From: [Chlorobium] sp. 445
GTDB lineage: Bacteria; Bacteroidota; Chlorobiia; Chlorobiales; Thermochlorobacteraceae
Assembly: GCA_002763895.1 (NCBI GenBank)
Contig: NSLH01000081.1
Location: forward strand, 40,001-82,225
Reading direction: 5' to 3'
Length of the DNA stretch: 42,225 bases
Shown: piece after piece, positions 1,084-36,593 of the stretch
Position numbering within the stretch: position 1 is the first letter of the stretch
Layout: every line of letters starts with the position of its first letter
Position numbers and translations under genes: made by a program
Notes under the pieces: model-generated
Seen by the model: only the letters and a program-made list of their open reading frames with translations
Told to the model about the DNA's origin: nothing
The model's database searches: none

Positions 1084-1509
1084 ATGCACAAATACAGCGT
1101 TGCATTTTTTGCTTTCTCGCTTCTTTTGCTTGCTGCGCTCGGCGCATTCACATTCTATGAACTCAATCGGCATCACGGAGAGATAAAGGAATACTACGCC
1201 AACGGGACATTGCGCTCTGCTGTGATATTCAAGCACGGTAAGCCTGACGGTGTTGCACGCACTTACTATCCCAATGGGAACTTGCGACGCGAAGCCTATT
1301 TTCAAAATGGGGTGCAACAGGGAGTTACCAGAAGTTACTATGAAAACGGTCAGCTCAAATCCGAGGAATACTATGAGAACAGCAAACTTGAGGGTGTTGC
1401 GAAGTTTTATGAGCCTGATGGACGTCTGCAATGGGAAGCTGTGTTTCATCAGGGACGCATTATAGATAGCACACTGAAAAACTATACGCGTTCCACTACA
1501 CAAGATTGA
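1084..1509 (+). CDS. MORN-type (YwqK-like) repeat protein with N-terminal membrane anchor
   Basis: A 141-residue protein. Residues about 4-26 form one hydrophobic segment (a signal anchor or uncleaved signal peptide). The rest is about four degenerate 23-residue repeats of the pattern YYxNGxLxxExxFxxGxxxG, for example EYYANGTLRS, TYYPNGNLRRE and SYYENGQLKSE. This matches the MORN_2/YwqK repeat family, which is common in Bacteroidota as small cell-envelope proteins. The biochemical role of these repeats is not established, although the name antitoxin YwqK is often copied onto them; no toxin partner is visible here. The gene lies 8 nt after the site-2 protease and 4 nt before folP, so it is probably part of the same transcript. 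Confidence 0.75.
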   Translation: MHKYSVAFFAFSLLLLAALGAFTFYELNRHHGEIKEYYANGTLRSAVIFKHGKPDGVARTYYPNGNLRREAYFQNGVQQGVTRSYYENGQLKSEEYYENSKLEGVAKFYEPDGRLQWEAVFHQGRIIDSTLKNYTRSTTQD

Positions 1510-1513
1510 TTCA

Positions 1514-2416
1514 ATGCAGCCTGTATATTCTGACAAGCTAATTTTTCGCTGTCGTGACCATGTGCTTGATCTTCATGAGCGTCCACGCATCATGTCGGTT
1601 CTCAACCTTACGCCCGACTCTTTTTCTGACGGTGGTAAATTTTACCACGACGAACAGATTGACCTTGATCGAGTCGTTGAAGCGGCTTTGCAGATGGTGC
1701 ATGAAGGCGCAGACATTTTGGATATCGGTGGTGAGTCCACGCGCCCTGGGGCATTGCCTGTCAGCGCGCAAGAGGAAATGCGCCGTGTGATTCCAGCAAT
1801 TGAACGGCTCTCGAAAGAGGTGAGTATTCCGCTCTCAATTGATACGACCAAAGCCTGCGTTGCTGAAGCTGCGCTCAAGGCTGGCGCCAGTATTGTGAAC
1901 GATATTTCAGGATTTTGCTTCGACAAGGATATGCCAGCTGTTTGCGCAAAGTTTGGCGCCGCTGCTGTCGTTATGCACTTGCGCCATAAGCCGCAAGAGA
2001 TGGTGTGGAGTTATCACGACAAGACGGTCTATCAAGACCTCATTGGCGAAGTGAAAGGTGCACTTTTGCAGTCACTCTCTCTTGCCGAGCAAGCGGGTAT
2101 CGATAACGTTGCGATTGATGTTGGGTTTGGCTTCGGCAAAACAATTGCAGGCAATTTCGAGTTACTGCGTCGCTTAGGCGAATTTAAGTCGCTGGGTCGA
2201 CCGATTCTTGCTGGACTTTCGCGCAAGTCGTTCATCGGCAAAGTTATTTCTCGGACTGCTGACGGCGTTGCGCCACCATCGGAGCGACTTTTTGGCACAG
2301 TCGCTGCTAATGTGATTGCCCTCATGAATGGTGCAAATATTTTGCGTGTTCACGACACCAAAGCAGCATTTGATGCAATTCAAGTTTTTTTGGCAACCGA
2401 GCGCGCTACATCATAA
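1514..2416 (+). CDS. folP: Dihydropteroate synthase
   Basis: Condenses 6-hydroxymethyl-dihydropterin diphosphate with p-aminobenzoate to dihydropteroate, a cytoplasmic step of folate synthesis and the target of sulfonamides. The 300-residue length is normal for the family. The TIM-barrel signatures are all present: NLTPDSFSDGG (residues 31-41), DIGGESTRPGA (about 70-80), the IDTTK strand near 113, VNDISGF, DVGFGFGKT near 200 and the SRKSFIG phosphate-binding motif near 236-242. No unusual insertions were seen. cdaA begins 11 nt after the stop; this folP-cdaA neighbourhood is recurrent in Bacteroidota. Confidence 0.97.
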   Translation: MQPVYSDKLIFRCRDHVLDLHERPRIMSVLNLTPDSFSDGGKFYHDEQIDLDRVVEAALQMVHEGADILDIGGESTRPGALPVSAQEEMRRVIPAIERLSKEVSIPLSIDTTKACVAEAALKAGASIVNDISGFCFDKDMPAVCAKFGAAAVVMHLRHKPQEMVWSYHDKTVYQDLIGEVKGALLQSLSLAEQAGIDNVAIDVGFGFGKTIAGNFELLRRLGEFKSLGRPILAGLSRKSFIGKVISRTADGVAPPSERLFGTVAANVIALMNGANILRVHDTKAAFDAIQVFLATERATS

Positions 2417-34036: not shown

Positions 34037-35864
34037 CTATGATGCTGATGGTTCAACTTTTTGTGTCTCATTGGTCGGCGGTGGCACATCCAGTGCAGCA
34101 GAAGCCTCTTGAATTTTCTGCTTCTCGTTGGGATGTGCGCGCATATACTCCTCAATTTCTTCTCGGCTCTTGCCTTTGAAATACTCCAGTGCAGAGAGAA
34201 TAATGCGGCGGTTTTCTTTGTCGAACTCAATTACTTTGAGTGGGAGCTCGTCATAGATTTTGAATGACGAGTGAATGTCGCGTACGCCGCCTTGCAAGAG
34301 ATGTGAAGCAGGCACAAATCCATCAACCCCCAGCGGCAATTCCACCACCACACCTTTTTCAATGATTTGAGTAATCTTACCTTTCGTTTCTGTGCCCACT
34401 GTATAGACAGTCTCGAAGTTATTCCATGGGTCATCTGTGATTTGCTTATGTCCAAGCGCAATGCGGCGTGCTTTGACATCAACTTTCAACACTTTGACTT
34501 GCAATTCGTCATTTTTTTTTGACCAATTCACCGGGATGTCGAATCTTCTTTGTCCAAGATAGGTCAGAGATATGCACCAAACCATCTACACCGGGCTCTA
34601 ATTCTACGAAGACACCGAAGTCCGTCAGGTTGCGCACAATACCTTTGTGAATTGTATCCGGCGCATACTTTTCGGCAAGCTTAAGCCATGGGTCGGCTTC
34701 GACTTGCTTCATGGAGAGTGAGAGTTTGGTATTCTCTTTGTCAATGTTGAGAATCACGCACTCTACTTCTTGTCCCATTGACACAAACTGATTTGGGTGT
34801 TTAATGTGCTGTGTCCAACTCATCTCGCTAATGTGCACCAAGCCTTCAATGCCTTTTTCAATTTCAATGAAGACGCCGTAGTCGGTAATCGAGACAACTT
34901 TACCTTTGACCTTATCACCGACTTTATACTTTGCATCAATGTTTTCCCACGGGTGTGGTGTCAGCTGCTTCATGCCGAGTGAGACGCGCTGCTTTTCTTC
35001 ATCGTAGCCAATGACCACGACTTTGATTGGATCATCTAACTTTACGGCTTCGGATGGGTGCGTGATGCGTCCCCAAGTAATATCAGTGATATGAACCAAG
35101 CCGTCGAGTCCGCCCAAGTCCACGAAGATGCCGAAGTCTGTGATGTTTTTGACTGTGCCTTCCAGCACCATACCGACTTTGATATTTGCCAGCATCTCTT
35201 TGCGGCGCGCTTCATACTCGGCTTCAAGAATTACTTTATGGCTAACGACGATATTTTGCGTCAGTGGATTGATCTTGACCACGCGGAACTCCATCGTTTG
35301 TCCGACGAGGGCATCGAAATCGCGCACGGGCTTAACATCAATTTGGGAGCCAGGCAGAAACGCTTCTACGCCGCTGAGCGAGACGGTCATGCCGCCTTTG
35401 ACGCGCGCGACAATTTTTCCCATCAGGGTCGTCCCTTTCTCCAGCGATTCGTAAATCTTCTCCCAGATGCGCATAGCGTCCGCTTTGCGCTTTGAGAGAA
35501 TCAGTTGCCCCATTTTATCTTCAATGCTTTCGAGAAAGACCTCAATTTCATCGCCTACTTTCAACTCAGTTGGGTCACGGAACTCTATAAGCGGAATAAT
35601 CCCTTCTGACTTGAAGCCTACATCTACAGAGACGTCTTTGTCAGAGATATGCACGATACGTCCTTTGACAATTTCGCCTTCTGTCAGTTCATTGAGTGTG
35701 CCCGAGTACATTGATTCAAGTTGCTTCAATTCTTCGTCTTGGTACTCGGCGAAGAATCGAACGCGCGTAGGCTTTTTGGTTTTCACCGTATCGGTTGACA
35801 TGTTAGTGTCGTTTGCATCGCTGCTTTTTTGCGCAGACATTTCGGCGACTTGCATTTCTGCCAT
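34037..35864 (-). CDS. rpsA: 30S ribosomal protein S1, six S1 domains, with a one-base frameshift
   Basis: Binds mRNA upstream of start codons and helps unfold it. Six S1 (OB-fold) repeats are visible, starting near [95 protein letters not shown] and [20 protein letters not shown]. The frame breaks after the fifth, in an A run (plus-strand T run 34512-34520, nine where eight are needed); the repaired [16 protein letters not shown] joins both parts to about 608 residues. The start ATG has an AGAAGG Shine-Dalgarno 9 nt upstream, held in a strong hairpin. It is transcribed separately from the str operon. Confidence 0.95.
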
Positions 35865-35872
35865 TCAGTTTA

Positions 35873-35916
35873 TCCTTCTCTCTTGTTTTTGCCGCTGTCG
35901 TTCCCAGAGAGAAGGA
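35873..35916 (-). promoter_or_regulatory. rpsA leader hairpin covering the ribosome-binding site
   Basis: In the mRNA, TCCTTCTCTCT pairs perfectly (11 bp) with AGAGAGAAGGA across a 22-nt loop. The 3' arm contains the Shine-Dalgarno AGAAGG of rpsA, 9 nt before the ATG. A second hairpin, GTTCC/GGAAC, with a 9-nt loop overlaps the 5' arm and cannot form together with the full long stem, so two states are possible. Confidence 0.65.
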
Positions 35917-35944
35917 ACGGGCGGTTTTTGGTTATTGGAATTTT

Positions 35945-35973
35945 CAAAAATAAATCGAAGAATCGAAGACAAT
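35945..35973 (-). promoter_or_regulatory. Possible rpsA promoter
   Basis: On the minus strand TATTTTTG (35945-35952) fits the Bacteroidota -7 element TAnnTTTG. The upstream partner is only ATTG (35970-35973) at 17 nt, so both sequence and spacing are off the best consensus. The start would leave a leader of about 75 nt containing the hairpin at 35873-35916. Confidence 0.4.
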
Positions 35974-36107
35974 ATCAGCCCCGAAGTGTGTTCAGGGAAT
36001 GAGAAATAAAGATAGGAAAAACTTCTTACTCAAAAAAGTCGAGACGTGTTTTTGTTGCGTAAGCCGCAGTTGCTAATGTATTTTTGTGTTTTTGTTACAC
36101 TACAACG

Positions 36108-36593
36108 ATGATGTTTCAGATTGCACCTCTTCAAAGCGAACATAAAGAGCCGATTCGCACGCTGCTCTTTGAGACAGGTGCATTTCGCCCTGATGAAATC
36201 GAGGTTGCAATGGAACTCATTGATGACACTCTTGCGCGCCATGGTGTGCTCTTGCCAGAGGATTATCATATTTTTGTAGCCCTTGATGAGCCGAATGTCT
36301 TAGGCTATGTTTGTTTTGGCAAAACACCCATGACGCTTTCCACTTTTGATCTGTATTGGATTGCGGTGTCGCCACAGGTGCAAGGCAAAGGCGTTGGGAG
36401 AGCCTTGTTTGACTTTGCCTGCAAAGAGGCGCGTGCCATGGGTGGTGCGCTCTTGGTTATTGAGACTGCCTCGCAGCCAAAGTATGAGCCAACGCGCAAG
36501 TTCTATGAGAAAGTTGGCTGCACACTTGAAGCCAGAATCAAGAATTTTTACAGCATTGGCGATGACAAACTTATCTACACCAAAGCCCTTTGA
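36108..36593 (+). CDS. GNAT family N-acetyltransferase
   Basis: Transfers an acetyl group from acetyl-CoA to an unknown amine. The acetyl-CoA-binding motif A is VSPQVQGKGVGRALFDFACK (Q-x-x-G-x-G pattern), after the strand DLYWIAV, and motif B is the TRKFYEKVGC helix near the end. The start at 36108 (MMFQIAPL) gives 161 residues; the ATG 3 nt later is equally possible, and the longer frame from 36084 adds an unlikely MCFCYTTT. Substrate cannot be inferred. It overlaps murI by 32 nt, so the two are probably co-transcribed. It is divergent from rpsA. Confidence 0.85.
   Translation: MMFQIAPLQSEHKEPIRTLLFETGAFRPDEIEVAMELIDDTLARHGVLLPEDYHIFVALDEPNVLGYVCFGKTPMTLSTFDLYWIAVSPQVQGKGVGRALFDFACKEARAMGGALLVIETASQPKYEPTRKFYEKVGCTLEARIKNFYSIGDDKLIYTKAL

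Follow-up and report, generated by a model that had tools for sequence, protein, structure and literature searches.

In E. coli and other gamma-proteobacteria the rpsA gene is preceded by a structured leader, and ribosomal protein S1, which in E. coli represses its own mRNA, has been proposed to act there as feedback repressor, in a competition between free S1 and the S1 that is bound to the 30S subunit (PMC10931766). The E. coli rpsA start region has no canonical Shine-Dalgarno (SD) sequence, the addition of an SD abolishes autogenous repression, and the preference of S1 for the region is ascribed to AU-rich single strands in a specific fold (PMC10931766). The E. coli rpsO operator is a pseudoknot that involves coding sequence and occupies the ribosome-binding site of the gene for an r-protein, S15, which is its ligand; this knot is melted better by 30S-bound S1 than by free S1 (PMC3858243). 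Pseudoknots are listed among the kinds of high-affinity S1 targets (PMC10931766), and S1 has nanomolar affinity for a selected pseudoknot of the H-type and also binds several natural ones (PMC7708055). An analogy in terms of working only is offered by the T4 gene 32 operator, i.e. a single-strand-binding protein that reads a pseudoknot in the leader of its own mRNA, where the knot adjoins unstructured A/U-rich sequence; it differs in that it belongs to a phage gene, lies well upstream of the SD, is bound by gp32 cooperatively and has an unrelated sequence (PMC535899). Finally, the r-protein leaders (r-leaders) described by Eckert and Weinberg in 2020 are lineage-restricted, covarying structures before r-protein genes (e.g. 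that of S6:S18 in Chlorobi), and in all known cases the ligand is encoded by one of the genes under the control of the leader; neither S1 nor rpsA figures in the assignments of their 20 motifs (PMC7247131).

The rpsA leaders of the class Chlorobia, which comprises the green sulfur bacteria and allied lineages, show likenesses to each of these systems and are identical to none. They are structured and, as we propose, respond to the competition between free and 30S-bound S1, as in the gamma-proteobacteria; nevertheless, nearly all of them carry a clear SD, so that the parallel with E. coli rpsA that had been drawn for this locus is a loose one, and the CUCUC/GAGAG pseudoknot described below has not been reported for the E. 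coli region. As in rpsO, the knot would sit at the ribosome-binding site and would be opened by 30S-bound S1, but it ends at the SD without reaching the AUG. We estimate at roughly 0.65 the probability that the element acts in cis as a translational operator of rpsA, namely a Chlorobia-specific r-leader in the form of an S1-responsive pseudoknot at the SD, by which the cell probably adjusts S1 synthesis to the S1 level.

The window, i.e. the whole stretch of 42,225 nucleotides that was analysed, derives from a genome of the Candidatus Thermochlorobacter kind (Chlorobiales); two congeners, L005 and L006 (the latter being Ca. T. aerophilum), have S1 proteins with 94% and 92% identity, respectively, to that of the window. 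The features of the locus are given in Table 1. The second part of rpsA lies in another frame (34037-34585), past a run of 9 A on the minus strand (34512-34520) at which the frame changes after codon 451. The local sequence is GTC-A9-TGAC and the reading frame would need 8 A; the relatives read VKKND or VKKGD in a single frame with interrupted A runs, and their rpsA is one open reading frame of ~600 aa with six S1 domains. The frame change thus points either to a mistake in sequencing or assembly or to a run that is prone to slippage. Upstream of rpsA lies a divergent gene for a GNAT acetyltransferase (36084-36593, plus strand), which resembles RimI weakly, with a score under the RimI cut-off; in many other Chlorobia the gene that closely precedes the rpsA leader is co-directional with it and, by eye, resembles cmk or ispH. 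No sigma-70 consensus site was found upstream of the window's rpsA. The -7 promoter box of Bacteroidota is of the type TAnnTTTG, and use of the possible box of this kind in Table 1 would, as a weak indication, give a leader of ~140 nt.

Table 1. Features of the rpsA leader and its gene (coordinates of the window)
Feature	Position	Strand	Basis or remark
Possible -7 promoter box UAUCUUUA	36007..36014	(-)	weak; similar placement in L005 and L006
Whole conserved element, ending with the rpsA AUG	35862..35947	(-)	covariance model R1, E 1e-5, 48.7 bits
A/C-rich single-stranded box AAUAACCAAAAACC	35923..35936	(-)	conserved in alignments A1 and A3
P1 outer stem, 5' arm CCGC	35921..35924	(-)	
P1 inner stem, 5' arm CGUUCCU	35913..35919	(-)	covariation
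Loop strand UUCUCUCU, putative stem 2 5' strand	35906..35913	(-)	core CUCUCU 35906-35911
P1 inner stem, 3' arm GGGAACG	35899..35905	(-)	
P1 outer stem, 3' arm GCGG	35892..35895	(-)	
A-rich linker CAAAAACA, putative pseudoknot loop 3	35884..35891	(-)	loop lengths
AGAGAG, putative stem 2 3' strand	35878..35883	(-)	
Shine-Dalgarno GAAGGA	35873..35878	(-)	sequence; duplex estimate with assumed 16S tail
rpsA AUG	35862-35864	(-)	
rpsA, first frame	34509..35864	(-)	451 aa, five S1 domains

The RNA upstream of rpsA reads ...AACCAAAAACCGCCCGUUCCUUCUCUCUGGGAACGACAGCGGCAAAAACAAGAGAGAAGGAUAAACUGA-AUG on the minus strand. The perfect 11-bp stem on which an earlier note had based a switch is present: the 5' arm UCCUUCUCUCU (35906-35916) pairs with the 3' arm AGAGAGAAGGA (35873-35883) across a loop of 22 nt, and the 3' arm indeed overlaps the SD, with AGAAGG at 35874-35879, 9 nt 5' of the AUG. 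The mere existence of such a repeat is unremarkable, since the 42-kb window holds one perfect inverted repeat of at least 11 bp (loop 3-40) against 0.3 expected from first-order shuffles of the window. What is unlikely is its position at the SD: in only 6 of 20,000 shuffled leaders did a stem this long have its 3' arm in the SD region. The second hairpin that had been noted, GUUCC (35914-35918) with GGAAC (35900-35904), is part of a larger one, which we call P1 and which combines CCGC/GCGG with CGUUCCU/GGGAACG (-16.1 kcal/mol, the 11-bp stem alone having -16.7). Folding of the single sequence is only modestly better than that of its shuffles (z -1.1 for 101 nt and -2.6 for 276 nt), and the strong evidence for structure in the leader is comparative.

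For the comparison, 57 distinct rpsA leaders of the class Chlorobia were extracted and aligned with MAFFT (A1). As this alignment misregisters stem 2 in the family of the window, a model-fitted alignment (A3) and per-sequence anchoring were added. A single layout is common to all 57 leaders: an A/C-rich box with the consensus UUAACCnUAAAACC, the last CC of which also opens P1; P1 itself, 6-12 pairs long and interrupted by an asymmetric internal loop; the loop strand CUCUC (UCGUC in L014); an A-rich linker; and GAGAG (GACGA in L014), followed in nearly all leaders by GAAGGA or similar, and then by the AUG. On A3, 8 of the 10 pairs of P1 are changed on both sides somewhere, which amounts to 63 such cells, and 81% of the P1 cells are paired as compared to 18-45% when the partners are slid; the covariation score was reached by none of 500 shuffles, and A1 agrees. 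Single pairs are swapped between genomes of one family, e.g. GCAUGCC/GGCAAGC in L137 versus GCAAGCC/GGCAUGC in L147. Since P1 has only a moderate advantage in fold energy over shuffled flanks (median z -1.56), the case for this helix rests on its covariation and not on its stability.

The loop of P1 provides the strand for a second helix (stem 2). In 56 leaders the loop sequence CUCUC is complementary to the GAGAG that precedes the SD, and in the one exception, L014, which represents a different family (G010), three of the five pairs are changed on both sides and the pairing is kept, so that the two strands are complementary in 57 out of 57 leaders. The spacing is 1-5 nt in loop 1, 0-2 nt in loop 2 and 8-12 nt in loop 3 in nearly all leaders. 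At the level of sequence, interleaved complementary strands and loop lengths that fit the geometry are what an H-type pseudoknot would display. The support for stem 2 consists of one set of three compensated pairs and of the spacing, because stem 2 varies in one lineage only, and the conservation of GAGAG could partly reflect an extended SD. L013 has no obvious SD after GAGAG. That these complementarities are fortuitous and without function seems very improbable indeed: tracts of purines and pyrimidines, in which the leader is rich, do pair easily, and the fold scores of single genomes are weak, but compensatory changes occur in many lineages in P1 and in one in stem 2, and the element is present in nearly all Chlorobia.

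The most likely interpretation of these sequence patterns is that the two hairpins noted earlier are the two helices of one H-type pseudoknot. The loop strand UUCUCUCU falls inside the 5' arm of the 11-bp repeat (35906-35916), and since it is the loop of the GUUCC/GGAAC hairpin that supplies the strand pairing beside the SD, both helices can coexist. The hairpin had been taken for a competitor that frees the SD, a role that does not fit a constituent of an element found in all 57 leaders. By our own estimate (not a computed value), P1 together with a stem 2 of 6-8 bp should be more favourable in the window than either hairpin alone.

The stem itself varies in length. In the window, the 3' strand of stem 2 can reach 35876, or 35873 if it forms a nested stem, and this 11-bp extension, which covers AAGGA, is found in this genome only; L005 has 6 bp and L006 has 8 bp, and elsewhere in Chlorobia stem 2 mostly has 5-6 bp and stops before AAGGA. 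Loss of the stem in close relatives had been named as grounds for giving up the hairpin: the full-length stem is not kept, while its core is. A conserved and covarying structure does touch the SD, and complete sequestration by 11 bp is private to this genome. It is rather improbable that the element is a bistable switch between an SD-sequestering 11-bp hairpin (off) and P1 (on), set by free S1. Both folds exist in the window with nearly equal energies, so that a true alternation is possible in this one species, but the 11-bp stem is missing in the closest relatives and in all others, the nested SD helix of 5-6 bp with its long loop is no match for the 6-12 pairs of P1, and the two helices need not be mutually exclusive.

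To delineate its distribution, the element was searched with a covariance model of P1 and its flanks (R1). Exactly one match per genome was found in 87 of 98 Chlorobia genomes and in 71 of the 74 good ones, the match in the rpsA leader of the window being the sole one in its genome, and in 87 of 87 genomes the rpsA start directly follows the match, as judged from the S1 genes themselves for G000-G060 and from the same S1 N-terminal peptide for the other 28. The 57 leaders were used to build R1 and match by construction, and the independent part of this result is the single copy and the 28 further genomes. Across 394 genomes of the phylum, E-values below 1e-3 were obtained in Chlorobia only, and the element was not seen in the inspected rpsA leaders of other Bacteroidota. 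Two marginal hits outside Chlorobia (G309 and G374, both with E 0.03) sit on contigs that do not carry rpsA and were taken as chance. Two Chlorobia genomes rated 96-100% complete (G003 and G052) have neither a real rpsA match (best E ~1e-5) nor a leader match, which probably reflects an assembly gap. No family of Rfam 15 matches the element: neither the window nor 14 relatives gave a match there, with E-values of up to 1 admitted. No earlier description was found in the open literature; supplements and subscription papers were outside that scope, and priority is therefore not certain. The sequence comparison thus gives good support to a conserved RNA element before rpsA in Chlorobia.

What is found for this element, i.e. 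a covarying conserved secondary structure and a consistent position upstream of an r-protein gene (87/87), corresponds to what characterizes an r-leader. No terminator-like site (hairpin plus U-run) was found before rpsA, and a transcription attenuator was rejected on that ground. The position, the lack of a terminator and the fact that the element goes with rpsA only together point to control at the level of rpsA translation. Given that every known r-leader has as its ligand the product of a gene that it regulates, S1, the direct product of rpsA, is the candidate ligand. Control by S1, as surmised before, remains the most economical reading of a conserved, covarying structure at the SD; both the ligand and the direction of control are inferred.

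The proposed operator would work as follows. The leader would fold into an H-type pseudoknot, made up (as the comparison indicates) of P1 and a helix of ~5-8 bp between the loop CUCUC and the SD-abutting GAGAG, and the knot with its flanking A-rich single strands may be a preferred landing site for S1, judging from the published binding of S1 to pseudoknots. At low S1 levels, newly made S1 would join 30S subunits; a 30S subunit would dock on the SD, its own S1 would melt the knot and initiation would follow. When free S1 is in excess, it would occupy the knot and the flanks, or hold the knot closed, such that the 30S subunit could neither pair with the extended SD nor accommodate the AUG, and translation of rpsA would drop. 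Provided that the 16S tail is of the usual kind, as we assume, GAGAG is also the 5' part of the extended SD, and the knot and the extended SD pairing would consequently compete. In the present genome, the extension of the helix into the SD, to 11 bp, may give a tighter off state.

A knot at this position could also serve as a constitutive enhancer or standby site that recruits the 30S subunit via S1 and raises rpsA translation without any feedback. The pseudoknot in tisB mRNA recruits S1 and 30S in this manner as a standby element (PMC7708055), strong expression of rpsA is required and the upstream box is A-rich. Stem 2, however, reaches into the extended SD, where it is expected to hinder rather than to help, and r-protein leaders as a rule give feedback (PMC7247131), which makes the enhancer an unlikely explanation.

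Competition between the knot and the extended SD pairing would matter in Chlorobia, where most mRNAs lack an SD (PMC9976891, PMC4535381). SD use in the window is sparse: of 41 putative starts, 8 (~20%) have a pairing with an assumed anti-SD tail that is better than -7 kcal/mol, as compared to 5% of random sites; all SD energies rest on this assumed tail, no 16S 3' end having been found in the assemblies searched. Against this background the leader might answer to another factor than S1, for instance to the anti-SD state of the 30S subunit (of the bS21/bS18 type), in which case only those ribosomes whose anti-SD is free could read the SD before rpsA. The SD of rpsU (bS21) is the strongest in all Chlorobia (PMC9976891), and a clear SD is kept before rpsA in nearly all leaders. 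This explanation nevertheless leaves the covarying P1 and the knot unaccounted for, and the SD pairing of the window's rpsA is ordinary (-9.5 with the assumed tail), as in several other genes of the window; we consider it quite improbable.

In the gamma-proteobacteria, S1 autoregulation is documented and depends on a weak SD; a conserved S1 operator in the form of a pseudoknot, in a lineage that branches deeply within the Bacteroidota, would solve the task in a second and different way. Such an operator would also link the finding that the S1 ligands selected in vitro are H-type pseudoknots to the retention of an SD at this gene in the largely SD-less Chlorobia. The element is directly testable, since it is short, occurs in a single copy and is found in nearly the whole class.

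A topologically different pseudoknot occurs in rpsA leaders of another class of Bacteroidota (that of G113; leaders L241-L270, e.g. L243 at 1501-1618, plus strand). There, the hairpin that precedes AGGAGG has GAUGGC in its loop, and this strand pairs with a GCCAUC that lies upstream, whereas the Chlorobia loop pairs downstream with the flank of the SD. It is a tentative idea, somewhat short of an even chance, that S1 of Bacteroidota controls its own synthesis by reading at least two different pseudoknots as its operators. The preference of S1 for pseudoknots in vitro would in that event gain a natural autogenous role, in lineages that are mostly SD-less. No Rfam family matches this second leader either, and a generic longest-complement test of the leaders of this class did not separate the signal from shuffles, whereas a motif-specific alignment did. 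The pairing is kept in the variants GUCAUC/GAUGAC, ACCAUC/GAUGGU, GCCGCA/UGCGGC and GCCGG/CCGGC; all six pairs are changed on both sides somewhere (14 cells) and 97% of the cells are paired, counts that lean towards the helix because alignment A5 was fitted to it, while A4, which was not, agrees. A covariance model (R2), which leans the same way in that it was built from 16 of these leaders, gives one match per genome in 37 of the 197 genomes of the class, and the matches that could be compared with known rpsA positions lie immediately upstream of rpsA.
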